From Pelagibacteraceae bacterium AG-390-C22 (lineage in GTDB: Bacteria > Pseudomonadota > Alphaproteobacteria > Pelagibacterales > Pelagibacteraceae), in contig QCGX01000006.1 of NCBI GenBank assembly GCA_003278125.1, positions 1 to 64,000 of the forward strand: 64,000 nucleotides of DNA. Direction: 5' to 3'. How positions within the stretch are numbered: position 1 is the stretch's first letter; every line of letters begins with the position of its first letter. Positions 2,621 through 24,828 of the stretch are shown in pieces. The notes beneath the pieces are model-generated. The model made no database searches. It was not told the DNA's origin and worked only from the letters and a program-made list of their open reading frames with translations. The position numbers and the translations under genes were made by a program.

Positions 2621-2979
2621 TCTAAAGCTCCTTTTTTCCATTCGTAAATAAATCCAACTGTTAAAATAGCTAGGAAAATCATCATTGACCAAAAACCAAG
2701 GGCTCCTAAACTTCCTAAAGATATTGCCCAAGGGAAGAGAAATGCTATTTCTAAATCAAATATAATGAATAAAATTGCTACTAAATAAAATCTTACGTCA
2801 AATTCCATTCTAGAGTCATCAAAAGCTTCGAAGCCACATTCATAAGCTGATAATTTTTCTGGATCAGGATTAGAAGGAGATGCTAAATAATTTGCAACGA
2901 TAAAACCAATACTTAAAAATAAAGCAATTAATAAAAAAATTACTATTGAAAGATAGTCTGTTAAAAAATTATAAATCAT
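2611..2979 (-). CDS. nuoA: NADH-quinone oxidoreductase subunit A
   Basis: [52 protein letters not shown], typical NuoA. Confidence 0.97.
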
Positions 2980-3101
2980 GTTTAATCAATACCTACCCTA
3001 ATACATTTAGCTTAGGGATTCTTATATTAATCGTTAAATACTTATAACATTTCAAATAGAACTGTACAGAAACATTATTAGCACAGTTACGAACTTTAGG
3101 T

Positions 3102-3120
3102 GAAAATGATTATCATGTAG
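3102..3120. promoter_or_regulatory. Fur-box-like palindrome upstream of nuoA and adjacent to the tRNA-Asp 3' end
   Basis: GAAAATGATTATCATGTAG contains the perfect ATGAT-T-ATCAT palindrome; 14/19 positions match GATAATGATTATCATTATC (reverse complement of the classical Fur consensus), counted by eye. Confidence 0.3.
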
Positions 3121-3197
3121 TGGCGGGAGTGACGGGACTCGAACCCGCGACCTCCTGCGTGACAGGCAGGCGCTCTAACCAACTGAGCTACACCCCC
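3121..3197 (-). tRNA. tRNA-Asp (GTC)
   Basis: Reverse strand GGGGGTGTAGCTCAGTTGGTTAGAGCGCCTGCCTGTCACGCAGGAGGTCGCGGGTTCGAGTCCCGTCACTCCCGCCA; loop CTGTCAC, encoded CCA. Confidence 0.97.
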
Positions 3198-3207
3198 ACA
3201 GAATCAA

Positions 3208-3283
3208 TGGTGGGCGGTAAAGGACTCGAACCTATGACCCTCTCGGTGTAAACGAGATGCTCTACCAACTGAGCTAACCGCCC
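3208..3283 (-). tRNA. tRNA-Val (TAC)
   Basis: Reverse strand GGGCGGTTAGCTCAGTTGGTAGAGCATCTCGTTTACACCGAGAGGGTCATAGGTTCGAGTCCTTTACCGCCCACCA; anticodon TAC, encoded CCA. Confidence 0.97.
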
Positions 3284-3371
3284 TAATCAAACAAAAACGA
3301 CATATACCATATTAATTTATAAAGTAAAAAAGTATTTAAGTTTTGATAAATAGCAGTAATATTGAATTATT

Positions 3372-3917
3372 ATGATTCTAAGCTGTAATTCTTGTGGCAA
3401 AAAATTTGTAGTGCCAGATAACGCTATTACCAAAGCTGGCAGATTAGTGCAATGTGGCGCCTGTGGAAATAAATGGAATCAATTTCCTGTCGAGATTGCT
3501 GAAAAAAAGAAGGTAATCTCAAAACCTGTTGCTAAAAAAAATATCACTAAACCTGAAAGTTCAAAAAAATCTATAAGTCCAAAAAAACCTAAAAGTATTA
3601 AAAGAAAAGTTCCAAAAAAGATGAGAGAAATAAATCTATACTCTCCAGAATATCTTGCAAAAAAACATGGTATCAAAATAAAAGATTCAGAACCAAAAGC
3701 TTCAAAAGGATCAATTCCTAAAAATAAAGTTTCATTTGGTTTTTATAGTACGCTACTAGTTTTTGTAGTATTTGTAATATTTTTTTCAAGATCTTTATAT
3801 TTTGCCCAAAGCTATATAATAACTTTATTTCCTATCGCAGAATTTTACCTAAGTTATTTTTTTGAAAATATAAGAAATATTTTTGAAATTTGGAAAAACT
3901 TGATTATTAATTATTAA
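3372..3917 (+). CDS. MJ0042-type zinc-ribbon membrane protein
   Basis: N-terminal CNSCGKKFVVPDNAITKAGRLVQCGACGNKW (two CxxC knuckles), Lys-rich linker, one hydrophobic segment near the C-terminus. Confidence 0.8.
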   Translation: MILSCNSCGKKFVVPDNAITKAGRLVQCGACGNKWNQFPVEIAEKKKVISKPVAKKNITKPESSKKSISPKKPKSIKRKVPKKMREINLYSPEYLAKKHGIKIKDSEPKASKGSIPKNKVSFGFYSTLLVFVVFVIFFSRSLYFAQSYIITLFPIAEFYLSYFFENIRNIFEIWKNLIINY

Positions 3918-6459: not shown

Positions 6460-6509
6460 ATAATTATCTATTTACATTTACTTATATTAAATTTTATTAT
6501 AACTCAAAT

Positions 6510-7403
6510 ATGATGAATATCTATGATTGCTTCCAGTATTTTGACGAAGATCTTCTATTAGATATCAGGCTCAACGTTTTAAATCAATATGTTAAAAAAT
6601 TTGTAATAACCGAAGCTACCTATACTCATAATGGAGCTAAAAAAGAATTAAATTTTAATATTAATAATTTTAAAAAATTTAAAGATAAGATTAATTATTT
6701 GGTCATTGACCAGCCTCCTGCCAATCTCCTTGAGTTTGTTAAAAATGAGCCAGAGCATAAAAAAGGAGAGAAATTAATTTTAAATGGAATGGCTCGAGAT
6801 TATTTTCAAAGAGAAAATTTAGTTAAAGGGATAGATGAGGCAAAAGAAAATGACATGATATTGATTAGTGATTTAGATGAGATACCAGATCTGTCAAAAT
6901 TGAATTTATCAGAAATTAACAAAAAGATTATTATCTTTGAGCAAAAGATGTTTTATTACAAATTAAATCTAATTTATGAAAACTGTTCTTGGTATGGTAC
7001 CAAAGCATGTAGAAAAAAAGATTTAATCTCTCCTCAGTGGTTAAGAAATATTAAAGCAAAAAAATATCCTAATTGGAGATTTGATCTTTTTTTTTCAAAA
7101 AAAAAATATACCGATTTATTCTTTGTTAAGAACGGAGGTTGGCACTTCACTTATTTAAAGACCCCTGAAGATCTAGAAAAAAAACTCTTAAATTTTGCCC
7201 ATCATTATGAATTTGAAAGAAGCGGCTTGAAAATTAATGACATTAAAAAATTTATGGATGAAAAAAGAGTAGTATACGATCACAATGTTGATCAAAAAGA
7301 CTATAAATGGTCAGGAAAATCTAAGTTAAAAAAAATTCAAAACAGTTTCTTGCCATCATATATTTCCTCTAATTTGGATAAATATAAAAATTGGCTTGAT
7401 TAA
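6510..7403 (+). CDS. Glycosyltransferase family 17-like protein
   Basis: MMNIYDCFQYFDEDLLLDIRLNVLNQYVKKFVITEATYTHNGAKKEL...ISDLDEIPDLSK...GGWHFTYLKTPEDLEKKLLNFAHHYEF. Start set at the MMN pair; the listed start at 6453 overlaps the divergent gene. Confidence 0.8.
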   Translation: MMNIYDCFQYFDEDLLLDIRLNVLNQYVKKFVITEATYTHNGAKKELNFNINNFKKFKDKINYLVIDQPPANLLEFVKNEPEHKKGEKLILNGMARDYFQRENLVKGIDEAKENDMILISDLDEIPDLSKLNLSEINKKIIIFEQKMFYYKLNLIYENCSWYGTKACRKKDLISPQWLRNIKAKKYPNWRFDLFFSKKKYTDLFFVKNGGWHFTYLKTPEDLEKKLLNFAHHYEFERSGLKINDIKKFMDEKRVVYDHNVDQKDYKWSGKSKLKKIQNSFLPSYISSNLDKYKNWLD

Positions 7404-7409
7404 AAATTA

Positions 7410-9815
7410 TTAATGAGTGCTTAGCTCTTCTTTTTTAGTTTTATTTTTTTCAGCAATCTGGTCTACTTCAACCCATTCAACTCTTTTTAATGGTTTAATT
7501 AAAGCAACTTTTAAAACTTCATCTACATTTTTTACTGGAATGATTTCCATTGTTTCTAAAATGGTTTTTGGAACTTCAACTAGATCTTTTTTATTTTCCA
7601 TTGGTATCAATACTTTTTTAATTCCTGCTCTATGTGCTGCCAGTAATTTTTCTTTTAATCCTCCTATGGGAAGAACAATTCCTCTCAAAGTAATTTCACC
7701 TGTCATTGCGACCTTCTTATCAACTGGTATTTCTGTGATAGCTGAAATAATTGAAGTAACCATTCCTATTCCTGCTGAAGGTCCATCTTTAGGAGTTGCT
7801 CCTTCTGGAACGTGTATATGAAAATCTTTTTTATCAAATACTGGAGGTATAATTCCATACTCTAAACTTTTAGATCTAATATATGATTTAGCTGCTTTAA
7901 CAGACTCTTGCATAACATCACCTAATTTTCCTGTGATTTGCATCTTGCCTTTACCTGGCATCACTGCCGACTCTATTTTTAAAATTTCTCCACCTACTTC
8001 AGTCCAAGCAAGTCCAGTGACCACACCAATTCTATTTGCTTCTTCTATTTCTCCGTAATTAAATTTTTGCACTCCTAATAGGTCTTTAATATCCTCTTCT
8101 TTTACAGGATTATTAACTTTTTCCTTGTTATCTATTTTTTTAACAAGTTTTCTTGCAATTTTAGATATTTCCCTCTCCAGATTTCTTACTCCGGACTCCC
8201 TAGTATAGTTTCTTATAATTTTACGATTTACTTTCTCATTAATGTTCCATTCATCTTTTTTCAATCCATTATTCTCGCTTTGTTTAGGAATTAAAAATTT
8301 TTGAGATATGTTTACTTTTTCATCTTCTGTATATCCAGACAATCTAATTACTTCCATTCTATCAAGCAGAGGAGGCAATATATTTAACGTATTTGCAGTT
8401 GTTACAAACATAACGTCGGATAAATCATAATCGACCTCTAAATAATGGTCGTTAAATTCTTTATTTTGCTCTGGATCAAGTGCTTCCAATAACGCAGATG
8501 AAGGATCACCTCTATAATCATTTCCAACTTTATCAATTTCATCTAACAGAAAAAGAGGATTTTTTGTTCCTGCTTTTTTCATCATTTGTATAATTTTTCC
8601 AGGTAAAGAACCTATATAAGTTCTTCGATGTCCTCTAATTTCTGCTTCATCTCTAATTCCTCCAAGAGAAATTCTTATAAACTTTCTATTTGTAGCCTTT
8701 GCTATTGATTTACCTAGAGATGTTTTTCCAACGCCTGGTGGCCCGACTAAACATAAAATAGGGCCTTTCATTTTTTGAATTCTTTTTTGAACAGCTAAAA
8801 ATTCTATTATTCTTTCTTTCACTTTTTCCAAACCATAGTGATCTTCGTCTAATATTTTTTGCGCATTATTTAAATCAGTATTTATTTTTGATTTATTCGA
8901 CCAAGGTAATTCAGTCATCCAGTCTAAATAATTCCTTACTACTGTGGCTTCTGCTGACATAGGACTCATCGATTTTAATTTTTTTAATTCAGATAAACAT
9001 TTTTCTTTTGCTAGTTTCGGCATTTTTGCATTTGCAATAGCTTTTGAAATACTTGATAGTTCATCCTTACCTTCGTCGATCTCTCCGAGTTCTTTTTGAA
9101 TGGCTTTTAATTGTTCATTCAAATAATATTCTCGTTGAGTTTTTTCCATTTGGTTTTTTACTCTACCTCTAATCTTTTTCTCAACTGAAAGAACGCTAGT
9201 TTCTTTTTCAATAATTGTATGAATTTTTTCTAATCTTTTTTTTAAGTCTATAATTTCTAACAACTCTTGTTTCTCAAAAATTGGGATATTCAAATTTGAT
9301 GAGATATTATTTGCAATTTGAGAAGCATTTTTTAGGTTATTAAGATTATTTGAAGATTCATTAAAATCTTTTTTATTTAATATCATTAATTTTTCGTATT
9401 TTTTTATTAAACTCGTGGCGAAAGTATCTAAATCTTTTGAGGCATTTTGATCTTCTGCTACTTCAACTTCACAAGTTAAAAATCTATCTTCTTTTTCATT
9501 ATGTTTTAATATTTTAACTCTTTTTTCTCCCTCAACTAATACTTTAACTGTACCATCTGGTAGTTTTAAAAGTTGAAGAATTTTGCTTAAACATCCATAG
9601 CTAAAAAGATCCTTGTCTTCAGGATCGTCTATCTCTGAATTTTTTTGTGTTATCAAGACGATTGATTTGTCAGACTTCATTACCTCTTGTAAAGCCTTTA
9701 TAGATTTTTCCCTCCCAACAAATAAAGGAACTACCATTGATGGAAATATAACTATATCTCTCAAGGGTAACAGAGGTTTAATATAAGATGCTTTCATCAT
9801 TCTCTTATATGGCAA
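7410..9815 (-). CDS. lon: ATP-dependent protease Lon
   Basis: GPPGVGKTSLGKSIA, HVPEGATPKDGPSAGIGM catalytic Ser, full-length 801 aa; true start may be one of the MM codons a few residues in. Confidence 0.98.
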   Translation of the reverse strand: MPYKRMMKASYIKPLLPLRDIVIFPSMVVPLFVGREKSIKALQEVMKSDKSIVLITQKNSEIDDPEDKDLFSYGCLSKILQLLKLPDGTVKVLVEGEKRVKILKHNEKEDRFLTCEVEVAEDQNASKDLDTFATSLIKKYEKLMILNKKDFNESSNNLNNLKNASQIANNISSNLNIPIFEKQELLEIIDLKKRLEKIHTIIEKETSVLSVEKKIRGRVKNQMEKTQREYYLNEQLKAIQKELGEIDEGKDELSSISKAIANAKMPKLAKEKCLSELKKLKSMSPMSAEATVVRNYLDWMTELPWSNKSKINTDLNNAQKILDEDHYGLEKVKERIIEFLAVQKRIQKMKGPILCLVGPPGVGKTSLGKSIAKATNRKFIRISLGGIRDEAEIRGHRRTYIGSLPGKIIQMMKKAGTKNPLFLLDEIDKVGNDYRGDPSSALLEALDPEQNKEFNDHYLEVDYDLSDVMFVTTANTLNILPPLLDRMEVIRLSGYTEDEKVNISQKFLIPKQSENNGLKKDEWNINEKVNRKIIRNYTRESGVRNLEREISKIARKLVKKIDNKEKVNNPVKEEDIKDLLGVQKFNYGEIEEANRIGVVTGLAWTEVGGEILKIESAVMPGKGKMQITGKLGDVMQESVKAAKSYIRSKSLEYGIIPPVFDKKDFHIHVPEGATPKDGPSAGIGMVTSIISAITEIPVDKKVAMTGEITLRGIVLPIGGLKEKLLAAHRAGIKKVLIPMENKKDLVEVPKTILETMEIIPVKNVDEVLKVALIKPLKRVEWVEVDQIAEKNKTKKEELSTH

Positions 9816-9847
9816 TTAGTATACTAATTTCAAGGATCAAATTGTAA

Positions 9848-11101
9848 CTAAGCTACTGATGTTGATTGTTTTTTACCGTATGTAATAATTGGTTCTGAGA
9901 CACCTTTAACAGAATCTTTATCAACTGTAACCTTTATTATATCCTCCATATCGGGTAGCTCAAACATTGTTTTTAAGAGAATATTTTCTAAAATTGATCT
10001 TAACCCTCTTGCACCTGTTTTTTTGGAAATTGCTTTTTTTGCAATTTCTGAAATTGCTTCATCCTTAAATACCAGATCAACATTTTCAAATTCAAATAAT
10101 CTTTGATATTGTTTAATCAAAGAGTTTTTTGGCTCTTTTAAAATTTTTACTAACGATTTTTCATCTAGATCATTTAATGTTGCGATAATAGGCATTCTTC
10201 CAATAAACTCTGGGATTAAACCGTACTTTATTAAATCTTCTGGTTCTAGTTGTTTCATAATTTCTGACAATGATCGTTCTTTATAATCTTGAACTTTAGC
10301 TCCAAAACCTATTGAACTTCCTTTTCCTCTGCTATCGATTAATTTATCAAGTCCGGCAAATGCACCGCCACAAATAAATAATATATTTGTTGTATCAACT
10401 TGTAAAAATTCTTGCTGAGGATGTTTTCTTCCTCCTTGAGGAGGAACGCTTGCAATAGTTCCCTCCATAATCTTAAGTAAAGCTTGTTGCACTCCCTCGC
10501 CAGAAACATCTCTAGTTATTGAGGGGTTTTCTGATTTTCTGCTAATTTTATCTACTTCGTCAATATAAACAATTCCTCTTTGAGCTTTTTCAACATTGTA
10601 GTCTGCAGATTGTAAAAGTTTTAAAATAATATTTTCCACATCCTCGCCAACATAACCTGCTTCGGTTAATGTAGTCGCATCAGCCATTGTAAATGGAACA
10701 TCCAAAATTCTTGCAAGAGTTTGAGCTAACAAAGTTTTACCACAGCCAGTTGGGCCAACTAAAAGTATATTTGATTTTGATAATTCTATATCTTTATTAT
10801 TTTTTGTTTCGTGGTTTAATCTTTTATAATGGTTGTGAACTGCTACAGATAAGATTTCTTTAGCAAATTTTTGACCTATCACATAATCATCCAAAACATT
10901 ACATATTTCTTTAGGAGTAGGAACTCCATCTTGATGTTTGACAAAAGCACTTTTGTTTTCTTCCTTAATAATGTCCATACAAAGTTCGACGCACTCATCA
11001 CAGATGAACACAGTTGGTCCTGCAATAAGTTTTCTAACTTCATGCTGACTTTTTCCACAAAAAGAACAGTAAAGAATATTTTTGTTAGTTTTTTCTGTCA
11101 T
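9848..11101 (-). CDS. clpX: ATP-dependent Clp protease ATP-binding subunit ClpX
   Basis: N-terminal [11 protein letters not shown] zinc domain; [25 protein letters not shown]. Confidence 0.98.
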
Positions 11102-13295: not shown

Positions 13296-14660
13296 ATGGT
13301 TTATATAACATTCTTGTATAAACTTAAATTAAGAAATATAGATACAAAAATCGCTTTTAACTTAGTAAAGGAAATGTATAAAAATATTAAAAGTAATCAA
13401 AGCTTAATTATCCTTACGTCATTTTTAATAATTATTTCTTATGCGTTGGGATTTTATCTCAATGAAGATAGCGCTGGTGGAGGTAAGATTGATTATATAG
13501 GACATGAATGGGGCACAATTCAACTTTTTACCAATAATAAACTAAATATTGCTTTAAATAGTGTTTTATATGAATCTTCTAGAACACCACTTTTTTATAT
13601 AATAAATACATTTATCCCATTTAAATACGATATCGAAAGTTTAAGATTATTTTGGTTTATTTTTTCAATAACTATACCTATCTTGTTTTATTACACTTTG
13701 AAACTTACTATTTTAGAAAGGCTAAATAAAATTCATATTGCTTTATTTGCTATTATACTTTTATTAAGCCCATATTTCAGAACAAATGCTTATTGGCCAA
13801 GTAGTGAGAATTTACAAATTTTTTTTGTAATATTATCTTTGTTCTTCTACTTTTTATTAATTAATAAAAAGAAGAACAAAAAATTTGAATTATACTCTTT
13901 TTCAAGCTTAAGCATTTTTTTTGCCTATTGTGCTTTTTATACGGATCAGAAAGCCTTTTTTTTAGTAGCTTTAATATATTTTGATTTAATTCGAAGGAAT
14001 AATCTTTTTTTCTTTATGATATTTAGTTTTATTAACCTTGTTTTATTTCTCCCGACAATTTATTTATTTATTTCTTGGGGTGGAATTGTTCCTGTTGAAA
14101 GTCAATTTAGAGTCTCAAAATATACTCAGGGAACTAATATTTTTATTTCAACTATAGGTATATATTTTACTTTAATTTTTATATCTAATTTTTTTAGAGT
14201 TGATATTTGGAAGAAAATTAATTTTAAGCAATTTGATCGTATCTTAATTTTTGTTTTAGCTGTATTCTTATTTTTTACCCTTCCAGCTGAACCAATAACT
14301 TTTGGAAGTGGAATTATCTCAAAATTTCTGGGAATAATTTCAATTAAATTTAATTTTAATTGGGACATAATTAAGTATGTTTATTTTATAATAAACTTAT
14401 TGTTTGTTGGAATAATCTTTTTGGTTGTTAAACAGTCTTTAAAAAATCTTATAATTTTTTCATCTTTTTTGTTGGTATACAATTTAACTTATGTGACTTA
14501 TCAATCTTATCTTGATCCAATTTTTTACATTTTAATATTAACAATTTTAGATTTTAAAAAAGATATTGTTATCTTTAATAAAAAGACCTGTTATCTCTTT
14601 TTATTTTTTTACAGCTTTATGTTATCTGGCTCCATAATAATGAGAAATTATATTATTTAG
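13296..14660 (+). CDS. Multi-pass membrane protein, probable GT-C fold glycosyltransferase
   Basis: Many hydrophobic helices; early acidic loop YLNEDSAGGGKIDYIGHEWGT resembling GT-C/PMT-like enzymes. The start may be the internal Met at ~13374 (MYKNIKSN). Confidence 0.55.
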   Translation: MVYITFLYKLKLRNIDTKIAFNLVKEMYKNIKSNQSLIILTSFLIIISYALGFYLNEDSAGGGKIDYIGHEWGTIQLFTNNKLNIALNSVLYESSRTPLFYIINTFIPFKYDIESLRLFWFIFSITIPILFYYTLKLTILERLNKIHIALFAIILLLSPYFRTNAYWPSSENLQIFFVILSLFFYFLLINKKKNKKFELYSFSSLSIFFAYCAFYTDQKAFFLVALIYFDLIRRNNLFFFMIFSFINLVLFLPTIYLFISWGGIVPVESQFRVSKYTQGTNIFISTIGIYFTLIFISNFFRVDIWKKINFKQFDRILIFVLAVFLFFTLPAEPITFGSGIISKFLGIISIKFNFNWDIIKYVYFIINLLFVGIIFLVVKQSLKNLIIFSSFLLVYNLTYVTYQSYLDPIFYILILTILDFKKDIVIFNKKTCYLFLFFYSFMLSGSIIMRNYII

Positions 14661-15591
14661 ATTTAAAATCTTTTATTTCTTTAATAATATATTTTTCTCT
14701 TCCACGAGCTTGTTCAAAAATTCTTGCAATATAAATACCCATTATTCCTAAAGTGAATAGTAGAATTCCTGAAAAAAAAGATACAGCTATCAAAATTCCC
14801 GTAGTTCCAGGTATAGCTAAATCATTAAATTTTGCATAAAGTGCATATACAATAAGAAAGACTGAAAAGAGAAGCGAAAAGAAGCCTAAAAATATTCCAA
14901 TATATAGTGGCTTTAAAGAATACGAAGTCACGCCATTAATGAATTCAGAGATAGGTCCTTGTGAAAATAATGAAAATTTAGATTCTCCGTGTGCTCTTGC
15001 TTCACGAGTATAATAAACGAAACTTTGTTTAAAGCCCACCCATACTGATAAACCTCTGACATAAGGCCTAAATTCTTTCTGAGATAATATTTTTTGCAAA
15101 ACTCTTTTTGAGATTAATTTAAAATCACCGGCTTCTATAGGTAAATCAATCTCAGAGAGTTTATTAATTGTTTTATAAGCGAGTTTAGTAAAAAATAATT
15201 TTACTCCGCTCTCACCGAGTCTTTTTTCTCTAACCGTATGAACAACATCATGTCCTTTTTCAAATTCAACCAAAAGTTTGGGTATTAATTCTGGTGGGTC
15301 TTGTAAATCTGAATCTAGATAAACTACACAGTCGCCTGAAGAATGTTTAAATCCTGCAAGCACACAAGGCCCAACACCGAAAGTCCTGCTCATATTAATG
15401 ATTTTTATATTGTGAGATTCTTGTAGTTCCTCTAAAATTTTTTCTGAGTCATCATTAGAGTCATCATTAACAAATATTAGCTCATATTTATAATTTTCAA
15501 CTTTTTTAAAAGTAGCATCAACTCTGCTTATGAGCTCATTTAAATTTTTTTCTTCATTTCTAAATGAAAAAACTATCGAAACTAATTTCAT
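14653..15591 (-). CDS. Family 2 glycosyltransferase with C-terminal membrane helices (polyprenyl-phosphate glycosyltransferase type)
   Basis: VSIVFSFRNEEKNLNELISRVD...VYLDSDLQDPPELIPKLL...two C-terminal TM segments as in ArnC/DPM1-like proteins. Confidence 0.9.
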   Translation of the reverse strand: MKLVSIVFSFRNEEKNLNELISRVDATFKKVENYKYELIFVNDDSNDDSEKILEELQESHNIKIINMSRTFGVGPCVLAGFKHSSGDCVVYLDSDLQDPPELIPKLLVEFEKGHDVVHTVREKRLGESGVKLFFTKLAYKTINKLSEIDLPIEAGDFKLISKRVLQKILSQKEFRPYVRGLSVWVGFKQSFVYYTREARAHGESKFSLFSQGPISEFINGVTSYSLKPLYIGIFLGFFSLLFSVFLIVYALYAKFNDLAIPGTTGILIAVSFFSGILLFTLGIMGIYIARIFEQARGREKYIIKEIKDFKSK

Positions 15592-15659: not shown

Positions 15660-16841
15660 ATGGATAAAGTTGATTTAGTAATTCTAGCGGGTGGTAAAGG
15701 GACCAGAATTAAGCGTCTTTTGACTGATAAACCTAAGCCTATGGCAAAGTTTAATGGAAAGTACTTTATAGAATATATTATACAAAACTTAAGTAAGTAT
15801 AATTTTGAAAATATCTATATTTTGACTGGCTATAAATCTAAAATTATTTTTAAAAATTTTAATAATAAAAAGTATAATTTTACCAATATAACTTGTTTAA
15901 AAGAAAAAGAACCAATGGGTACCGGGGGTGCTCTTTATTCTTTAAAAAAAAGAAAAATAAATAATTTCATATTAGTTAATGGAGATACAATTTTTGATGT
16001 CAATATAAAGCATTTAATTAATTCCACGAAAAAAAATAATATTGCTTCAATAGCTCTTGTAAAAAATAATAAAGATAAAAAAAATAAAAAACTTAATAAC
16101 TTAAATATCAAAAATGGAAATATTGTTTTAAGAAAAAAAAGCAGTTTCATGAATGGAGGAGTATATTTTTTTAAAAAATCAATATTTAATCATATTAGGA
16201 ATAAACATTTATCATTAGAAAATGATATATTTCCGAAATTGATAAGAAAAAAACAAATTGCTGGGAAATTATTTAAAAATTTTTTTATAGATATTGGAAC
16301 TCCTAATAATTTTAAAAGAGCTCAAAATGCTCTACTTTTATATTTTAAAAGACCAGCAGTATTTCTAGATAGGGATGGTGTTATAAATCATGATTATGAG
16401 TATGTATATAAATACAAAGATTTTAAGTTTAGAAAAGGCGTTTTAAAAGGTTTAGATTTTTTAATTAAAAAAAACTTTTATCTATTTATAATTACTAATC
16501 AAGCAGGTATAGCAAAAAATGTTTTTAAAGAAAGAGATTTTTTAAAACTACATAAAACTCTTAAGCAAAAACTATCATTAAAAAATATATATTTTGATGA
16601 AGTCCAGTTTTGTCCTTACCATCCTAAAGCAAAGATAAAGAAATACAAAAAGATTACCTCACTAAGAAAGCCTGGAAATAAAATGATAAAAAATATAACA
16701 TCCAAATGGCTTATAAGTAAAAATAAAAGCTTTATGATAGGCGATAAATTATCTGATCAACAATGTGCGCTTAAAAGCAAAATAAAATTTGAGTATGCTC
16801 GTGAGAATTTTTTCAACCAGGTTAAAAAAATAGTAAATTAA
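15660..16841 (+). CDS. Bifunctional sugar-1-phosphate nucleotidyltransferase (HddC-like) / D-glycero-D-manno-heptose bisphosphate phosphatase (GmhB-like HAD)
   Basis: N-terminal LVILAGGKGTRIKRLLTDKPKPMAKFNGK nucleotidyltransferase signature; C-terminal VFLDRDGVINHD...FCPYHP...KPGNKMI...MIGDKLSDQQCA, histidinol-phosphatase/GmhB-like HAD. Confidence 0.88.
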   Translation: MDKVDLVILAGGKGTRIKRLLTDKPKPMAKFNGKYFIEYIIQNLSKYNFENIYILTGYKSKIIFKNFNNKKYNFTNITCLKEKEPMGTGGALYSLKKRKINNFILVNGDTIFDVNIKHLINSTKKNNIASIALVKNNKDKKNKKLNNLNIKNGNIVLRKKSSFMNGGVYFFKKSIFNHIRNKHLSLENDIFPKLIRKKQIAGKLFKNFFIDIGTPNNFKRAQNALLLYFKRPAVFLDRDGVINHDYEYVYKYKDFKFRKGVLKGLDFLIKKNFYLFIITNQAGIAKNVFKERDFLKLHKTLKQKLSLKNIYFDEVQFCPYHPKAKIKKYKKITSLRKPGNKMIKNITSKWLISKNKSFMIGDKLSDQQCALKSKIKFEYARENFFNQVKKIVN

Positions 16842-17776
16842 TAATTATTTATTACTTTGTTTTTATCGTTAGTAAAAATTTTTATTAATTCTGATATACC
16901 ATCCTCTAAAGAAATTTTAGCTTTAAATCCCTTTTTTTCAATTTTTTTGTTACTTACAAAATAATCTCTTTTATCCGGATCTTTTCTATTAGTCACAATT
17001 TTAATTTTCAACTTTTTATATTGTTTTTGTATTTTTCGAGCCAACATTATTTTGCTGATATTTGCAGATGATAAACCTAAATTGTATACATTATCTTTTA
17101 GTCTATTAAAGTTCTTCATCGTAAAGATTATTGCGTTCACAACATCCCTTACATGAATAAAATTTCTTCTAAAATGCGGTTCAAACAATGTTAGTTTTTT
17201 CTTTTTTATAGCAGTGTATACAAAATTATTTACTAATAGATCGCTTCTCATTCTATAGCTATGTCCAAATACTGTAGCTAATCTAAAACAAACATGATTT
17301 TGTATTTTTGATCTGACTAAGTCTTCACCATCACATTTGGTTCTTCCATAAAGTGAGATTGGTTTAAGAGGGCTTTTTTCATCACAATATTTATTTTTTT
17401 CTCCTATTCCGTAGCCTGAATTAGTCGTCAAATAAATTACTTTATTCTTTTTTGTTGCAAAATTACATAAAGTTTTTATCGAACCTAAATTTGTACTTAA
17501 TGCCTCTTTTTTAAATTTTTCACACAAAGGAGCACCAACAAGTGCCGCCAAAGGTATTATAAAATCATGTTGTTTAATTAGTTTTTTCATTAAATTCACT
17601 TTTCTAATATCATCACAAATTAATTTAAAATTTTTGTTAAAATAAAGATGGTTTAGTGATCCTTTGTCATACTTAAGGAGGTCTACAACAGTTACCATAT
17701 GGCCTTCTTCTAACAATTTAGTACAAAGCATCGAACCAATATAACCTGCTCCTCCTGTAATAAGTATTTTGCTCAT
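16838..17776 (-). CDS. NAD-dependent epimerase/dehydratase family (extended SDR), nucleotide-sugar
   Basis: ILITGGAGYIGSML; YGRTK catalytic YxxxK; no TDE motif typical of 4,6-dehydratases noticed. Confidence 0.88.
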   Translation of the reverse strand: MSKILITGGAGYIGSMLCTKLLEEGHMVTVVDLLKYDKGSLNHLYFNKNFKLICDDIRKVNLMKKLIKQHDFIIPLAALVGAPLCEKFKKEALSTNLGSIKTLCNFATKKNKVIYLTTNSGYGIGEKNKYCDEKSPLKPISLYGRTKCDGEDLVRSKIQNHVCFRLATVFGHSYRMRSDLLVNNFVYTAIKKKKLTLFEPHFRRNFIHVRDVVNAIIFTMKNFNRLKDNVYNLGLSSANISKIMLARKIQKQYKKLKIKIVTNRKDPDKRDYFVSNKKIEKKGFKAKISLEDGISELIKIFTNDKNKVINNY

Positions 17777-17779
17777 AAT

Positions 17780-18271
17780 TTATAAAAGTTTGGATATTTT
17801 ATCTCTTTTACTTAATATTGGTTTTTTTACGGGCCATTTTATTTTAAGTTTTGGATCATTCCATCTGTAACTGTTTTGTTTGTTCGCATCAATGTATTTT
17901 CCTTTATAACTCCACTTATAATGCAATATACATATTTTGGTTAAACACAAATGTGCATTTGCATAATATGGGGGTACTAAAATAATTTTTGGTTTTTTAT
18001 GATCCAATATCCATTTCTTATGCTTTAAATAGTTTTTTGAATTTTTTCTCATATCAACTACAACAAATAAAAACTTTCCATAAATGCATGTAATCATTTT
18101 CCAGGATTTAAAATCGCAATGAATACCTCTTAATGTTTTGTGCTTTGAGAGTGAAAATTTGTCATGATTAAACTTTATATTATTAAAAACTCCCTTTTTC
18201 CAAGTTGTCCATAAAAAACCTCTATTGTCTTTAAAACCAGAATTTTTTATTACCTTAATATCTTTAAACAT
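17780..18271 (-). CDS. RmlC-like (dTDP-4-dehydrorhamnose 3,5-epimerase family) cupin
   Basis: NRGFLWTTW...KTLRGIHCDF (catalytic His context)...ILVPPYYANAHLCL...LHYKWSYKGKY. Confidence 0.82.
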   Translation of the reverse strand: MFKDIKVIKNSGFKDNRGFLWTTWKKGVFNNIKFNHDKFSLSKHKTLRGIHCDFKSWKMITCIYGKFLFVVVDMRKNSKNYLKHKKWILDHKKPKIILVPPYYANAHLCLTKICILHYKWSYKGKYIDANKQNSYRWNDPKLKIKWPVKKPILSKRDKISKLL

Positions 18272-18277
18272 AATATT

Positions 18278-19834
18278 TTATTGCAGTTGATCACCTTTAA
18301 TTTTTCTCTTTAATTTTATTTTTGTCATTTCAATTATGTTTTCTGCAGCTTTTTTTCCAAATTTTTTTTCTATAAGTTGCAAAAATGGTTTGTGATTATG
18401 ATATCTATTAAATGCTTCATCTCTCAATGTTATAATTTCTTTAGCTGATAATTTTTCTGTTGGTAAGGGTAAAGTTTCATAGGAGTGAAAAGAATATCCT
18501 TCATAGTTTTCTGGTAACTTTATTCCTTTTTCTAATGCATCTTTATATAAAAAACTTCCAGGTAACGCCATAGCGCCATAAGTGTTCCATCCTGCTGTAC
18601 ATAGTTCTAAACTTAATTTAAATGTTTTTTCAATTGTTTCTTTTGTGTCTCCTGGTAGACCATAAATATAATTAGCCATTACATTAATACCTGCTTCATG
18701 AACCTTGTTTATTACTTTTTTAACATCTACATCCTCAAATTTTCCTTTATCAACCTCAAGCCGAACAGATTTCTCTCCGCTTTCAATTCCAAGTGCTAAC
18801 CATTTTATTCCTGCGCTTCTTACTAATTTTAAAATTTCGTGACGTTTAACCGTATCAATCCTACTATAGCTCCATATTCTTAAAGAATCGTCTTTGTTTC
18901 TTTTAGCTAACTCTTTGCACAAGGGTAAATAGTATTTAGGGTTTAATAAAAACATCTCATCTACTATTCTTATCGTTCGCACGCCCATTGAGATAAGTTT
19001 ATCGAATTCTTTTATGATAAACTCTGGAGACCAAAAACGCATACTGCTAAAATCTGAAGCTACACCGACTTCATCAGTATTATTTCTGTTAACAATATTG
19101 ATCATGCAAAAATTACATTTAAAAACACATCCCAAACTTGTTTGAATACTTGCGTAAGGACTTCTTTTTTTAAAATCATACTCTGCATGCCACATTGGAG
19201 CTCTGTATAAATCTAATGGTTTATCTTTAAATGGTAATAAATCCCAAGCATATCCTGGTAAGTCAATATCCATTCTTTCTGTAGGAACAACTTTTTCTGG
19301 CTGATTTATTGAAATTTTATTGTTTTCCCTAAAGGCAATGCCTTTTATATTTTTTAGAGTTGAAGTAGTAAAACTTTCTAACTTAAGAACATTTCTTAAA
19401 GCATAAACCCCCTCATTTGTGAAAATAAAATCTATATTTTTTTCTTTTTCCAAAGTCTCTTTTGGTAATGCTTGTGCGTGGGAACCAATTAGTGAAATGC
19501 TTTTGCCAATTTTATTATCTTTTAAATAGTTTATAAGATTAACTGCTCCACTCATGTTTGTCGTTCCTGCATTAACATTTTGTCCATAAACTACGATGCA
19601 TATAAGTTTTGGTGACATTGATTTAATTTTCTTAAAAATCTCTTCTTCAGTAAGATTTTCAGCAGCTGCGTCTAAAATTTTAGGGTTAAGATTTACAGAT
19701 CTTATAGACTGAGCTAATAATAGTGCCCAGGTCGGAGGTTCTATTGCAGAATATGTTTCTGACAATTTTTGGTAAGATTTTTTTGAATTCGAAGGTATTA
19801 CAAATACACAATCAATACCTGGTTTTTTTTCCAT
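18278..19834 (-). CDS. B12-binding-domain radical SAM protein
   Basis: N-terminal cobalamin-binding-like Rossmann region (LIGSHAQALP), then SLGCVFKCNFCMI (CxxxCxxC) and TIM-barrel motifs WLALGIESGEKSVR, YIYGLPGDTKETI. Confidence 0.9.
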   Translation of the reverse strand: MEKKPGIDCVFVIPSNSKKSYQKLSETYSAIEPPTWALLLAQSIRSVNLNPKILDAAAENLTEEEIFKKIKSMSPKLICIVVYGQNVNAGTTNMSGAVNLINYLKDNKIGKSISLIGSHAQALPKETLEKEKNIDFIFTNEGVYALRNVLKLESFTTSTLKNIKGIAFRENNKISINQPEKVVPTERMDIDLPGYAWDLLPFKDKPLDLYRAPMWHAEYDFKKRSPYASIQTSLGCVFKCNFCMINIVNRNNTDEVGVASDFSSMRFWSPEFIIKEFDKLISMGVRTIRIVDEMFLLNPKYYLPLCKELAKRNKDDSLRIWSYSRIDTVKRHEILKLVRSAGIKWLALGIESGEKSVRLEVDKGKFEDVDVKKVINKVHEAGINVMANYIYGLPGDTKETIEKTFKLSLELCTAGWNTYGAMALPGSFLYKDALEKGIKLPENYEGYSFHSYETLPLPTEKLSAKEIITLRDEAFNRYHNHKPFLQLIEKKFGKKAAENIIEMTKIKLKRKIKGDQLQ

Positions 19835-19837
19835 TTT

Positions 19838-21025
19838 TCAAATTTTAATTTTATTCAAAATTATAGCAATCTCTTTTATTTTACTTTTTTTCAAAGTGGG
19901 GTAATTTCCGATATAATATCCAAAAAAATGAATATGGTCTACGTTTTTAAATTTATTAAAATTTATGTTTTTAGAAAATTCTTTTAAATAAGGTTGACGT
20001 AATTGGTTTCCTCCTCCAGCTGTTCCTCTTCTAAATTCAATGCCATTTTTTTCTAATGTTCTTTCAAATAAATTTCTTTTACTAATATTCTTTGTTTTTA
20101 AAATTATTGGAAATGCATAATTGCTATTGCCTTTGAAATCAAAAGCCTTCCAGTATTTATTTCCATCTAGAAGATTAATGAAATATTTAAAATTATTTGA
20201 CCTATTTGAATTATTTTTAGTTAAATTTTTTAATTGATTCAATCCTATTGCAGCTCCTATCTCAGTATTTCTAAAATTCAAAGCTGGATATAAAAAAGTA
20301 AATTGCGGCGACAAAGTTTTATTCTTTTTTATAACTTTTTTTTCATAAGATTTGTTGCCGGACTCTCTTAGCATGCCGTGAGACCTTAGAATCCGAGACA
20401 TTTCATAAATCTTCTTATCATTTGTACAGATCATTCCTCCTTCTATGGTAGTCATATGATGTGCATAATAGAATGAAAAATTCGAAATTAATCCAAAAGT
20501 TCCCAGTTTTTTATTTTTAAAAGTTGCACCGTGGCTTTCACAAACATCTTCTATTAAATGAATTTTTTTTCTTTTAAGGGTTTTAATTAGTTTTTCATTT
20601 AGCCCGTTAAAACCTAAAGTATGTGTTATAAAAACAGCTAAAGTTTTTTTTGATATCTTTTTAATAACTTGATCAACATTCATTGATAAATTTTCTAGAT
20701 TAGCATCTACAAAGACTGGTTTAAATCCATTCATAATTACTGAAGCTACATCAGATATCCAGGTAAGAGATGGTACTATAATTTGATTTTTATTTTTATT
20801 TTTATTAGAATGTTTAAGTATCGCTAAAGTAATAAAATTTGCTGAAGCTCCAGAATTTACAAAAGTTGAATACTTAACTCCTAGCCATCTAGACCATTTA
20901 TTTTCAAATTGTCTTACATTTTTTGATTGGGTTAAAACTAAATTTTTTACACTTATAACTTTTTTCACTGCACTCATATCGGAGCGTGTAAAATTATTTT
21001 TCATTAAAGGATGTTTTGATTTCAT
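19838..21025 (-). CDS. DegT/DnrJ/EryC1-fold PLP enzyme, probable nucleotide-sugar 3-dehydratase (ColD-like, active-site Lys to His)
   Basis: FSFYYAHHMTTIEGGMICT: His189 aligns with the PLP Lys of ArnB-type aminotransferases (FSFHAIKNITCAEGG); matches the ColD/E1 dehydratase signature. Confidence 0.8.
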   Translation of the reverse strand: MKSKHPLMKNNFTRSDMSAVKKVISVKNLVLTQSKNVRQFENKWSRWLGVKYSTFVNSGASANFITLAILKHSNKNKNKNQIIVPSLTWISDVASVIMNGFKPVFVDANLENLSMNVDQVIKKISKKTLAVFITHTLGFNGLNEKLIKTLKRKKIHLIEDVCESHGATFKNKKLGTFGLISNFSFYYAHHMTTIEGGMICTNDKKIYEMSRILRSHGMLRESGNKSYEKKVIKKNKTLSPQFTFLYPALNFRNTEIGAAIGLNQLKNLTKNNSNRSNNFKYFINLLDGNKYWKAFDFKGNSNYAFPIILKTKNISKRNLFERTLEKNGIEFRRGTAGGGNQLRQPYLKEFSKNINFNKFKNVDHIHFFGYYIGNYPTLKKSKIKEIAIILNKIKI

Positions 21026-22002
21026 AAATTATTCAATATAACTTGACTTCCATCTTTTGTAAAATTAAACGGCACATTTATAATATTTTTATGTCTTCTA
21101 AAAAATTTTTTTGCTTTTTCTTTTTTCATGTACATAAGTAAAAATCCTCCTCCTCCAGCACCTAATAACTTACCTCCTAAAGCTCCATAATTAATAGCTT
21201 CATTATACAATTCATCAATTTTTTTGTTTGTAATAAGATTGCTTAAACTTTTCTTTTCTTCCCAAGAAGTATTTAAAAGTCTCCCAAAGTCATCTACATT
21301 ACCAGATTCTAAAATTTTTTTACCTTCGTTCACGAAACTCATTATTTTTTCTATGTGGTTTTTTTTACTTTTTGTTAGCTTTCTTACATAACTATTTGCA
21401 ATTTTATGAGCTGTTCTATTTATTCCGGTATAAATTAAAACTAAATTTTTATTTAATTTTTCAACGTTTATACTAGATGATATTTTTTGAACTTTAATTT
21501 TATTATTTTTATTAAATATTATCTTATTAAAACCACCATAGGAAGCTATTGTCTGATCTTGAGATCCAACAATTTCTTTCATAATTTTTTGTTCAAATTC
21601 AATTGTTTTTTTAGCAAGCTGTTGTTTTGACAACTCTTGGCCTTTAATTTTATATAAAGCTTTGCTTAATCCTACTGCGAAACACGAGCTCGATCCCATA
21701 CCGCTCCTTGCAGGCAAGTCCCCGTCATAGTGTATCTCTAATCCTTGTTTAACTTTTAAATGCTCTAAAAGCTTTTTAACTGCTCTGTGTTGAATTTGGT
21801 TTATGTCTGTTACATTCTCAATTTTAGACCAGACTATTCTATATTTATGCTTAAAAAATTTAGGCAGGTATCTACATGAAATATATATGTATTTATCTAT
21901 AGTTGTTGACAAAACCATGCCGCCATATTTTTTATACCATTCTGGATAGTCACTGCCCCCTCCAAAAAAAGATATTCTGTATGGTGTTTTAGTAATAATC
22001 AT
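21022..22002 (-). CDS. hddA: D-glycero-alpha-D-manno-heptose 7-phosphate kinase (GHMP family)
   Basis: TPYRISFFGGGSDYPEWYKKYGG, LPARSGMGSSSCFAVGL, GALGGKLLGAGGGGFLLMY. Confidence 0.88.
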   Translation of the reverse strand: MIITKTPYRISFFGGGSDYPEWYKKYGGMVLSTTIDKYIYISCRYLPKFFKHKYRIVWSKIENVTDINQIQHRAVKKLLEHLKVKQGLEIHYDGDLPARSGMGSSSCFAVGLSKALYKIKGQELSKQQLAKKTIEFEQKIMKEIVGSQDQTIASYGGFNKIIFNKNNKIKVQKISSSINVEKLNKNLVLIYTGINRTAHKIANSYVRKLTKSKKNHIEKIMSFVNEGKKILESGNVDDFGRLLNTSWEEKKSLSNLITNKKIDELYNEAINYGALGGKLLGAGGGGFLLMYMKKEKAKKFFRRHKNIINVPFNFTKDGSQVILNNL

Positions 22003-22004
22003 TT

Positions 22005-22550
22005 TTATTTTTCGTTGTAATAGTCTCCAAATTCAACAATTAAAGTATTTCTTCCATCTGTTCTGGTAAATGCTTTTTCGTAAGCAGGAAAAATATCCTC
22101 TGGCTCCATTAACTTTATAACATCAATTGTCGTACACATTTTTTTAATCGAATCAGTAAAATCACCTATATGTTGGTATTGAGGATGCAGAGGTCTTTGT
22201 GAACCAACTCCTGTTCTTATAATTATCTTAATATTTTCTTCTTTACCTGTCATCACACTATACTTATCTATGTGATTGATAAGCTGATTCATTCCGTACA
22301 ATAAGAAATTCCATCTAGGAAATATGCTTATAGGAATATTTCCATCCATGGCTAAACCTAAAGTCATCCCCATTTGCATTTCCTCAGCAACAGGTAATTC
22401 TAATAATTTATTTTTAGAGACATCGGACAAAGTATTTGACATTGCAGTTCCTGGAACTTCAACAGCTTGACCAATAAAAATTGTGTTTTTTTGAGAGCCT
22501 AAAAAATTCATTGATTTTTTTAATTCGTCAAAATACATTTTTTTTTTCAA
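22005..22550 (-). CDS. Thiamine-diphosphate enzyme, PDH-E1-beta/transketolase Pyr-domain-like subunit
   Basis: FIGQAVEVPGTAMSNTL...ELPVAEEMQMGMTLGLAMDGNIPISIFPRWNFLLYGMNQLINHIDKY; 181 aa, lacks the C-terminal domain of a full E1-beta. Confidence 0.8.
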   Translation of the reverse strand: MKKKMYFDELKKSMNFLGSQKNTIFIGQAVEVPGTAMSNTLSDVSKNKLLELPVAEEMQMGMTLGLAMDGNIPISIFPRWNFLLYGMNQLINHIDKYSVMTGKEENIKIIIRTGVGSQRPLHPQYQHIGDFTDSIKKMCTTIDVIKLMEPEDIFPAYEKAFTRTDGRNTLIVEFGDYYNEK

Positions 22551-23146
22551 AATTGAACTCTCTTTCCTGCCCCTGCATGAGGATAGTCTAGTTCATACTG
22601 GTAATAAGTAACATAATCATCTGAAAAATTTTCATAAGTAAGTTTTTTTTGGGACCAAGCAGTTCTAGTATCTGTGCATACTGATTTTTTATTATCTTCG
22701 ATAATAAAATGAATTGGTAATTTTTTATTTCTACTATATTTTATACATTCGTGAGCAATGCCTGTTTCTGATGTCATATCTCCAATAAAAGTGTAGACTT
22801 TTTCATTTTTATTATTTCTTTTTAAAGAAAGAGCAACACCAACAGCTGTAGGTAAATTGCCTCCAACTATTGCTGATGAATAAATTTTATAATCAGGAAA
22901 ACAAAGAGATATTGATTTTCCATCTAAAATTTCTTGCTTAAGTCTCTTTTCTGGAACTCCTTTAAGCAGGCATTGGTAATGAGATCTCCACGAGCAAAAA
23001 ACCCAATCTTGTTTCTTTATTTTTTTAAAAAAATTTATTAAAAAATCTTCATTTCCAGAATAAAGATGGATTGGAGCTCTAATCTTTTTATTATTAAAAA
23101 GTTCTGCTATTTCTTTCTCAAATTTTATTAAGTCTTTTTTTTCCAT
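22547..23146 (-). CDS. Thiamine-diphosphate enzyme, PDH-E1-alpha-like subunit
   Basis: SWRSHYQCLLKGVP...YSSAIVGGNLPTAVGVALSLKRNNKNEKVYTFIGDMTSETGIAHECIKYSRNKKLPIHFIIEDN: GD-x(n)-N ThDP-binding pattern; 4-nt ATGA overlap with the partner subunit. Confidence 0.82.
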   Translation of the reverse strand: MEKKDLIKFEKEIAELFNNKKIRAPIHLYSGNEDFLINFFKKIKKQDWVFCSWRSHYQCLLKGVPEKRLKQEILDGKSISLCFPDYKIYSSAIVGGNLPTAVGVALSLKRNNKNEKVYTFIGDMTSETGIAHECIKYSRNKKLPIHFIIEDNKKSVCTDTRTAWSQKKLTYENFSDDYVTYYQYELDYPHAGAGKRVQF

Positions 23147-23159
23147 TTTAGAATAAACT

Positions 23160-23729
23160 TTAATTAGGCGGGTATTCTCTTTTACCTATAATCAGATCAC
23201 AAACAGTTAATAACCAAAGTTGGTGAGTATTTTCTATAAAGTTATAAGCTTTGCTTTCTATCCATAAATTAATATCCCCTAATTTTGATAGTGGGTTGTT
23301 TTTTTCATGGCCCGTTAAAGTAATAATTTTTAAAATATTTTTTCTCTTTGCTGCTTTACATGCATTAATCATGTTGAGTGATTTGCCACTAGAAGAAACC
23401 AAAATCAAAATATCTTTACCTTCACCATAAAATTCAATGGCTTTTTCAATCCATCGCTCATATCCATAATCATTAGAGAAACATGTTATGAGATCAGCTT
23501 CATTATAGTTCACTGCTCTTATTCCAGCATTTTTAGTCAGATCAACACTAACGTGGCTGGCTATAGCTGCGCTCCCTCCATTACCAAAAATCATGACTTT
23601 TGAATTATTTTTTTTTACATCTAATAAAGTTTTTTTAATAAGAGAAATTTTTTCAATTATTTCATCAGTGGGTGTAATTAATGATGAAAAATCTTTTAAA
23701 TATTTTTTTACAAAATCTTTATCTGACAT
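23160..23729 (-). CDS. gmhA: Phosphoheptose isomerase (SIS domain)
   Basis: VMIFGNGGSAAIASHVSVDLTKNAG...FSNDYGYERWIEKAI...ILVSSSGKSLNMINACKAAK. Confidence 0.87.
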   Translation of the reverse strand: MSDKDFVKKYLKDFSSLITPTDEIIEKISLIKKTLLDVKKNNSKVMIFGNGGSAAIASHVSVDLTKNAGIRAVNYNEADLITCFSNDYGYERWIEKAIEFYGEGKDILILVSSSGKSLNMINACKAAKRKNILKIITLTGHEKNNPLSKLGDINLWIESKAYNFIENTHQLWLLTVCDLIIGKREYPPN

Positions 23730-23769: not shown

Positions 23770-24828
23770 CTATTTAACAGTTTTGTATAATCGCATGTAA
23801 AATACTATATAAAACACTAATAAAACAAAAAACCAACATTTACTAAATAAGGGATTATGCATAAAATATATTCCTGGAGAAACTAAGATCAAGTAGACAA
23901 TATTTAAATACAATGATGTTAGGTAATTATTATTTTCAGAAGGGTAATTTTTTTCTAAATATTTATATATCAACATATGTAGGTGGTTTTGGTCTGGTAA
24001 GAGAGGAGATTTTTTTTGTATCAATTTTCTAAAAAAAGAAAAAAATACTTCAAAAAATAGATAGAACAATAAGACGCAAAAGAAAAATGCTGATATAGAG
24101 GGGTCTAAATTATTTGTAAAAATTATATTTAAAGCTATTAAAGATCCAAATAGATAAGATCCGCTGTCACCGAGAAAAATTTTAGCTTTTGGAAAATTAA
24201 AAAGAAGAAAGCAAAGTATAATTATAATTTGAGCTGTTATAAAAAGTGAAAATTCAAAAATATTATTATCTATATTAATATATAATAGAACAGAATTTAT
24301 AATTATTGAATTAATGGCTAAAAGTCCATTGAAACCATCTATTAGATTTGCTCCGTTCACGATAAATAAAAAGCATAAAAGTACAAAAATTGAAGAAAAA
24401 ATTTTATTATCTAACCAATTACTTAAAAAAATTAAGTCTACATTTTTAATTTCTATTGAAAATATATTTATAAAAATAATTAAAAATACAATCATCAATA
24501 TTAATCTTATGTTTGAGCTTACTCTTTTTTTTATATCGTCTAAGTAACCAACTAAGAATAAGCTAGTACAAATAAAAAAATATTGATAAAGAATTTTTGA
24601 AAAAAGAAGGTAGTAAATGCTTAAAAATATAAGCAGAGATAATAATGCGGCTATTCCTCCACTTCGTGAAATTGCTTCATTATGAAATGCTTGGGGTTTT
24701 AAAAAATCTTTATCTAATAGAATTCCCTGATTTAATTTATGAGAATATTTACTTACGATTAAAAAGATAAAAAAAGTTATAAATGTAAAAAGCGATAAAA
24801 AACTTAATTCAATTGAATCTGTTTGCAT
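23770..24828 (-). CDS. MraY/WecA/TagO-type undecaprenyl-phosphate sugar-phosphate transferase
   Basis: GYLDDIKKR, GANLIDGFNGLLA, FLGDSGSYLFGSL motifs; polytopic. Confidence 0.9.
   Translation of the reverse strand: MQTDSIELSFLSLFTFITFFIFLIVSKYSHKLNQGILLDKDFLKPQAFHNEAISRSGGIAALLSLLIFLSIYYLLFSKILYQYFFICTSLFLVGYLDDIKKRVSSNIRLILMIVFLIIFINIFSIEIKNVDLIFLSNWLDNKIFSSIFVLLCFLFIVNGANLIDGFNGLLAINSIIINSVLLYINIDNNIFEFSLFITAQIIIILCFLLFNFPKAKIFLGDSGSYLFGSLIALNIIFTNNLDPSISAFFFCVLLFYLFFEVFFSFFRKLIQKKSPLLPDQNHLHMLIYKYLEKNYPSENNNYLTSLYLNIVYLILVSPGIYFMHNPLFSKCWFFVLLVFYIVFYMRLYKTVK

Follow-up and report, generated by a model that had tools for sequence, protein, structure and literature searches.

A widely conserved, partly phage-borne gene set of SAR11 bacteria and its proposed product, a 3-deoxy, C4-branched GDP-heptose

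Introduction

The GDP-heptose pathways of Campylobacter jejuni (Cj1427, Cj1430/DdahB/MlghB, HS:5 C3-dehydratase) are the described systems closest to the early steps proposed here for a heptose operon of the SAR11 genome Pelagibacteraceae bacterium AG-390-C22. The operon lies on a 64,000-nt stretch (“the window”), i.e., positions 1 to 64,000 of contig QCGX01000006.1 (assembly GCA_003278125.1), which is part of a 74.6-kb contig in a 1.04-Mb genome. It shares with C. jejuni the GDP-D-glycero-D-manno-heptose scaffold and the types of C4-dehydrogenase, cupin and C3-dehydratase. In vitro, Cj1427 and the HS:5 C3-dehydratase, which uses pyridoxal phosphate (PLP) and glutamate, convert GDP-D-glycero-manno-heptose to GDP-3-deoxy-4-keto-heptose, and the latter is accepted by a C3,5-epimerase (PMC10680097). 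However, the described C. jejuni pathways include no thiamine diphosphate (ThDP) or radical S-adenosylmethionine (SAM) enzyme, and they end with a reduction at C4, for which no reductase was found here.

Sugar branching by ThDP enzymes is documented in other systems. Two-subunit enzymes that resemble the E1 component of pyruvate dehydrogenase (PDH) occur in nucleotide-sugar clusters of antibiotic pathways (the alphaKADH2 enzymes of aldgamycin, kibdelomycin and avilamycin), where they are proposed or shown to attach a pyruvate-derived C2 branch to a ketosugar; for split transketolases, a transfer of hydroxyacetyl units has been proposed (PMC12247030). By description, the subunits in the window differ in being much shorter, in a beta subunit without the C-terminal transketolase domain, in the GDP-heptose acceptor and in their marine bacterial or viral host. 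In yersiniose A, YerE also adds a C2 branch to C4 of a 3-deoxy-4-keto nucleotide sugar for lipopolysaccharide (LPS) synthesis, but it is a ThDP enzyme of the decarboxylase superfamily acting on a CDP-3,6-dideoxyhexose, with no radical SAM step. HpnJ, BchE and AprD4 have the B12-binding-type radical SAM architecture of the remaining enzyme in the window, whose closest hidden Markov models (HMMs) are those of HpnJ and BchE and whose closest solved fold is that of AprD4; the window enzyme nevertheless scores far under the curated cut-offs (125 versus 578 bits for HpnJ) and differs in gene neighborhood and substrate.

No description of a pathway combining these elements was found in the searchable literature on radical SAM, heptose, transketolase and O-antigen genes and on cyanophage; radical SAM cassettes of pelagimyophages have been mentioned without a function (PMC7029224). 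The gene set is a widely conserved, partly phage-borne nucleotide-sugar pathway that is new in its combination, and its probable product is a GDP-activated higher sugar, 3-deoxy and branched at C4, destined for the cell surface. This proposal builds on the observed protein families and their co-occurrence, on the in vitro precedent of C. jejuni homologues for the two steps following GDP-heptose and, for the branching, on the known E1-like carboligases. The front half of the route is well supported, and the branching is likely.

Proposed Steps from the Heptose Scaffold to GDP-3-deoxy-4-keto-heptose

An earlier note, made from the letters of the window alone, had described a tight minus-strand operon with a fusion gene convergent at its end; its coordinates and junctions were reproduced, and the set is syntenic in other genomes. 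All nine open reading frames are intact, eight on the minus strand and the fused nucleotidyltransferase-GmhB gene on the plus strand (Table 1), and Pfam and NCBIfam scans are in accord with the gene names of all nine. From gmhA onward, the tandem junctions are a 13-nt gap, a 4-nt overlap, a 2-nt gap, a 4-nt overlap and gaps of 3, 6 and 3 nt, and the gene for the short-chain dehydrogenase/reductase (SDR) and the fusion gene overlap by 4 nt at their convergent ends.

The HddC and GmhB scores of the fused protein both lie under the NCBIfam curated cut-offs. GmhA, HddA and HddC-GmhB would together provide the GDP-D-glycero-manno-heptose scaffold, and this part of the earlier proposal is supported. 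The SDR matches Cj1427 with 2e-88 and 300 bits over 303 residues, compared to 9e-20 and 75 bits for the next family. Its site, TNSxYG / YxxxK, is kept in the relatives (TN in 80/82; S, YG, Y and K in 82/82), and no TDE motif of 4,6-dehydratases was found in its sequence. By homology, the SDR is a Cj1427-type C4-dehydrogenase, which would oxidize GDP-heptose at C4 in an alpha-ketoglutarate-dependent manner as in Cj1427; thus, a 4,6-dehydratase is not needed, and the view that a C4 oxidase was missing from the window was wrong. The assignments of the SDR as a final reductase, made in the same note, or as a 4,6-dehydratase were rejected on the same grounds.

The DegT-fold protein is closest to ColD among PDB entries. 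Its AHH motif aligns with SHH of ColD, His190 corresponding to ColD His188, and this histidine replaces the PLP-binding lysine in 78/78 relatives. Therefore, an aminotransferase was rejected, and the earlier assignment as a ColD-type 3-dehydratase is upheld at the level of sequence. With 204 bits against the NCBIfam RfbH cut-off of 423, the protein is a relative and not an RfbH equivalog. It would strip O3 to give GDP-3-deoxy-4-keto-heptose, and since exactly this conversion was achieved in vitro with C. jejuni enzymes, the front half of the pathway rests on demonstrated homologue chemistry.

The RmlC-like cupin matches Campylobacter GDP-4-keto-heptose 3-/3,5-epimerases at about 1e-43, compared to 3e-18 for the best other RmlC (dTDP), and is predicted to be an epimerase of this type, acting on the 4-keto-heptose. 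His51, Lys58 and Tyr118 are present in 36/36 relatives and Asp157 in 35/36. The heptose-positioning Tyr132 of MlghB is not kept, being Leu in the window and Phe in 32/36 relatives, and the substrate pocket differs.

The Split ThDP Enzyme and Likely Branching at C4

In the E1-alpha (PP) subunit, which has an active-site His, the ThDP motif GD(M)..EDN as well as WRxH are conserved in 65–66/66 relatives; with Glu allowed for Asp (GD/EM...EDN), the motif is kept in 65/66. E1-beta consists of the PYR domain only, with the catalytic Glu56 and His127 each present in 64/64 relatives; its AlphaFold2 model (pLDDT 87.6) is best matched in Foldseek by E1-beta of PDH and branched-chain ketoacid dehydrogenase (TMq ~0.8) and fits well as the N-terminal domain of PDH E1-beta. 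In a tree, the short alpha subunits and fused cyanophage versions separate from full-length E1s with a support of 100/99, with long branches flagged. As judged from these motifs and the tree, the pair forms a ThDP enzyme that is shortened yet has all its parts and belongs to a clade of its own, in agreement with the split carboligase postulated before. By analogy to the antibiotic enzymes, the pair would most likely graft a pyruvate-derived C2 unit onto C4, converting C4 into a tertiary alcohol. A search of the own genome for a GFS-type C4 reductase found none, in keeping with such an alcohol at C4. Of the two analogies drawn earlier, that to the E1-like carboligases (AviB1/AviB2) applies to the two-subunit, PDH-E1-like build; YerE is a mere analogue from a different ThDP superfamily (PMC12247030).

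Related ThDP proteins occur in other settings. In the cyanophages P-TIM68 (L001 9983–11191) and S-SM2 (L002 9971–11179), the short pair is fused into a protein of 402 aa, annotated only as “transketolase central region,” next to a zinc alcohol dehydrogenase; genes nearby bear the annotations kinase, nucleotidyltransferase and phosphoheptose isomerase. A SAR11 heptose cluster (L037, G044:C12:68000–87900; 2827–10440) has a short E1 pair of ~47–49% identity and no close copy of the radical SAM enzyme, suggesting that branching may occur without the latter. The genome of the window itself encodes a second, full-length E1-alpha/beta pair (L263, G000:C5:58500–63000; 460–2494) beside two Lys-type DegT aminotransferases, a different sugar cluster with the same kind of ThDP enzyme.

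Conservation Across Genomes and Viruses

Synteny of the entire set extends to a second SAR11 genome, where the eight operon genes are 90–97% identical. A third SAR11 genome keeps all but gmhA in synteny (68–83% identity) between different flanks, gmhA being absent beside the G030 cassette; the HddC-GmhB fusion stays convergent in these relatives. With the radical SAM protein as query, 41 viral contigs were recovered, mostly at 59–65% identity, and their gene order is often SDR - radical SAM - E1-alpha - E1-beta - ColD - RmlC. Hundreds of loci were hit when named genomes were scanned; the 80 that were kept come from SAR11, SAR116, Nitrospira, Verrucomicrobiota, Planctomycetota, Spirulina (cyanobacteria), Methylomonas, Methylomicrobium, Pseudomonas turukhanskensis and Bradyrhizobium diazoefficiens. 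Co-occurrence was counted in the 46 genome loci that span 19 kb or more: near the radical SAM gene, the ThDP pair is found in 45, HddA in 39, ColD bearing the His motif in 38, the Cj1427-type SDR in 35 and HddC in 31. GFS (17/46) and RmlC (8/46) never occur together in this count, which is not phylogenetically independent, and may be alternative epimerases, GFS also reducing C4. Because it is syntenic in SAR11 relatives and recurs across phyla and viral contigs, the gene set is not a chance array, and the co-occurrence in other genomes on which the earlier note had made its proposal depend is observed. None of the three outcomes that this note had named as refuting was seen, since the short E1 pair stands apart from full-length E1s, the DegT enzyme has His for Lys and the genes occur together.

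Among plasmid records, matches were found only in Azospirillum, Solidesulfovibrio and, weakly, Lawsonia. Plasmid pDMC1 of Solidesulfovibrio magneticus (L222) carries the set and, at the cluster end, a gene for L-2-hydroxyglutarate oxidase (lhgO), which would recycle the by-product of an alpha-ketoglutarate-dependent oxidation of the Cj1427 type; this is only suggestive. Viral copies often carry additional genes, as in L093 (12340–14141), where a phosphoribosyltransferase, a nucleoside phosphorylase-family protein and an HldE-kinase-like PfkB protein are encoded just downstream of RmlC. The first two could possibly salvage 5'-deoxyadenosine or S-adenosylhomocysteine.

A search of 101 genomes of relatives of the window revealed the radical SAM gene in 10, with a ThDP gene adjoining in 10/10. 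The Cj1427-type SDR is present in 8/10 of these genomes versus 3/91 others; the corresponding single-genome Fisher test (3.5e-8) ignores phylogeny and incomplete genomes and is supportive only. Within a constant frame of HddA - DegT - RmlC - SDR and the convergent HddC-GmhB (SDR 71–97% identical), there is a joint replacement of the radical SAM and ThDP genes. The cassette holds the short E1 pair in G000, G005 and G030 and a split transketolase in G022 and G038; in G010 and G018, as in G013 with its short contig, the E1 pair is longer and the radical SAM protein only 46% identical, and G003 has yet another type. This joint exchange argues for ThDP and radical SAM enzymes that each work on what the other makes and together determine the final structure. 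The radical SAM enzyme probably acts on the branched product, which it would remodel, and we infer a 3-deoxy C4-branched heptose, further altered by this enzyme, as the product.

Several points weigh against a C4-branched sugar as the product. The GFS-type proteins of the 17 genome loci would be able to reduce C4, in competition with branching, and split-transketolase copies would donate a hydroxyacetyl and not an acetyl unit. Moreover, GmhA is not part of every cluster copy, and Asp123 in the ThDP motif of E1-alpha is replaced by Glu in 19/66 relatives.

What the Radical SAM Enzyme May Do

The CxxxCxxC triad of the window's radical SAM protein is kept in 121/121 relatives. This protein is the only one of its own genome above the Pfam B12-binding cut-off, so it may either do without cobalamin, which AprD4 is not known to require, or rely on B12 that the cell scavenges.

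It is possible, though not probable, that the enzyme is an AprD4-like 1,2-diol dehydratase (e.g., C6–C7) or another radical dehydratase or epimerase, yielding a branched, further deoxygenated, ringless heptose. AprD4, whose substrate is likewise a sugar diol, comparable to the C6–C7 diol of the heptose, is the best Foldseek match of the AlphaFold2 model (pLDDT 81.6; E 4e-20, TM 0.64/0.73) and the top PDB sequence match (51 bits). The identity is only 17%, however, TsrM, CysS and OxsB follow with nearly equal scores, and the NCBIfam AprD4 model gives 59.5 bits against a cut-off of 500. Furthermore, the closest HMMs, HpnJ and BchE, are without a solved structure in such structure searches, and a diol dehydratase offers no reason for the strict pairing with ThDP genes.

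That pairing would fit an enzyme that linked the tail of the heptose to the newly added C2 unit and so closed a ring, generating a carbocyclic, caryose-like sugar; this reading is about as possible and likewise not probable. HpnJ (124.7 bits, cut-off 577.6) and BchE (112.4 bits, cut-off 481) are the best HMMs, and the known cobalamin radical SAM enzymes that are not methylases all form or rearrange rings (PMC13142503). Yet the HpnJ scores are unspecific: genuine BchE reaches 125–130 bits on the HpnJ model, and membership in HpnJ was rejected for this reason. The diol dehydratase as nearest solved fold and the single protein over the B12-binding cut-off also speak against ring closure.

Caryose, from the LPS of Pseudomonas/Trinickia caryophylli, resembles the predicted sugar in being a 3-deoxy nonose with a methyl-bearing C2 unit on C4, a comparison of sugar structures and not of pathway genes; no account of caryose biosynthesis was found in the literature. 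In the IUPAC/Fischer reading of its name, C2 is left, C4 right, C5 left and C6 right, and by the same reading D-glycero-D-manno-heptose has C2 left, C5 right and C6 right. C2 and C6 therefore match, and only C5 is inverted, a center changed by GDP-4-keto-heptose epimerase. The heptose minus O3, with C5 inverted, an acetyl group (C8–C9) at C4 and C7–C8 closed, would be caryose, and every predicted enzyme would have a role. The predicted skeleton, including its stereochemistry, matches caryose; this is a chemical fit and no evidence of SAR11 making caryose. In the full version of this reading, which is unlikely, GDP-3-deoxy-4-keto-heptose would be epimerized at C5, the E1 pair would acetylate C4, and a bond formed by the radical SAM enzyme between C7 and the carbonyl carbon of the acetyl group would lead to a cyclopentane-fused sugar, the 4,8-cyclo-3,9-dideoxynonose known from caryose. 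Bradyrhizose was considered as well, because Bradyrhizobium carries the cluster and the bradyrhizose genes are uncertain (PMC4743980), but it is not supported as a product: radical SAM and Cj1427-type SDR genes were found in only 1/20 photosynthetic (puf-positive) Bradyrhizobium genomes.

A methylcobalamin-dependent C-methyltransferase is improbable. Methylases make up the majority of the radical SAM enzymes that use cobalamin (PMC13142503), and weak HMM matches to several methylases exist, but these models score far below HpnJ and BchE, and the nucleosidase and APRT-like genes in many viral copies are compatible with any radical SAM chemistry. Finally, that the ThDP pair, which adjoins gmhA and in some copies consists of true transketolase halves, acts upstream by supplying a ketose phosphate to GmhA, with no branching at all, is very improbable, as the window pair is PDH-E1-like and not transketolase-like, a pyruvate-derived 1-deoxyketose is not isomerizable to an aldose, and in SAR11 the pair changes along with the radical SAM gene, not with gmhA, which G030 lacks at this place.

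Gene Neighborhood

The operon is flanked by genes for a 454-aa membrane protein with no Pfam match (13296–14660) and a Glycos_transf_4 (WecA/MraY-like) protein (23770–24828), both consistent with surface polysaccharide assembly. The GT2 glycosyltransferase listed in Table 1 may be the acceptor-side enzyme.

Table 1. Predicted genes of the heptose operon, with the convergent fusion gene and a neighboring glycosyltransferase gene (positions in the window).
Predicted product	Position	Strand	Basis
GmhA-like sedoheptulose-7-phosphate isomerase, 189 aa	23160..23729	-	NCBIfam gmhA 6e-25, Pfam SIS_2; 90% in L035
E1-alpha-like ThDP (PP) subunit, short form, 199 aa	22547..23146	-	Pfam E1_dh 3e-17
E1-beta-like PYR subunit, 181 aa, TTG start	22005..22550	-	Pfam Transket_pyr; AlphaFold2/Foldseek
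HddA, GHMP kinase	21022..22002	-	NCBIfam HddA 3e-41, top match but below curated cut-off
ColD-type PLP/PMP 3-dehydratase, DegT fold, AHH motif	19838..21025	-	PDB ColD 5e-54
B12-binding-type radical SAM enzyme, 518 aa	18278..19834	-	Pfam Radical_SAM and B12-binding; CxxxCxxC at 236-243
GDP-4-keto-heptose 3- and/or 5-epimerase-like cupin (RmlC-like)	17780..18271	-	PDB 7ani/8dcl/8dco/7m14
Cj1427-type SDR, GDP-D-glycero-D-manno-heptose C4-dehydrogenase	16838..17776	-	PDB 6vo6/6vo8
Fused HddC-like nucleotidyltransferase and GmhB phosphatase, convergent	15660..16841	+	NCBIfam HddC 4e-33 (1-220), GmhB 1e-35 (232-377)
GT2 glycosyltransferase	14653..15591	-	Pfam Glycos_transf_2 1e-28; neighbor in most SAR11 copies (L035, L036, L128-L138)

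Implications

The proposed pathway unites GDP-heptose chemistry of the Campylobacter type, ThDP branching of the antibiotic type and a B12-type radical SAM enzyme in a widely shared set that is phage-mobile and occurs in ocean bacteria of very high abundance. With published protocols, the first steps of the pathway are open to immediate reconstitution. For carbocyclic bacterial sugars, the locus offers a testable genetic hypothesis: if ring closure were true, a carbocyclic LPS sugar would have a genetic basis that is spread over phyla and carried by marine phages. The exchangeable cassette of ThDP and radical SAM genes hints at the way in which a single surface sugar is varied by cells and phages.

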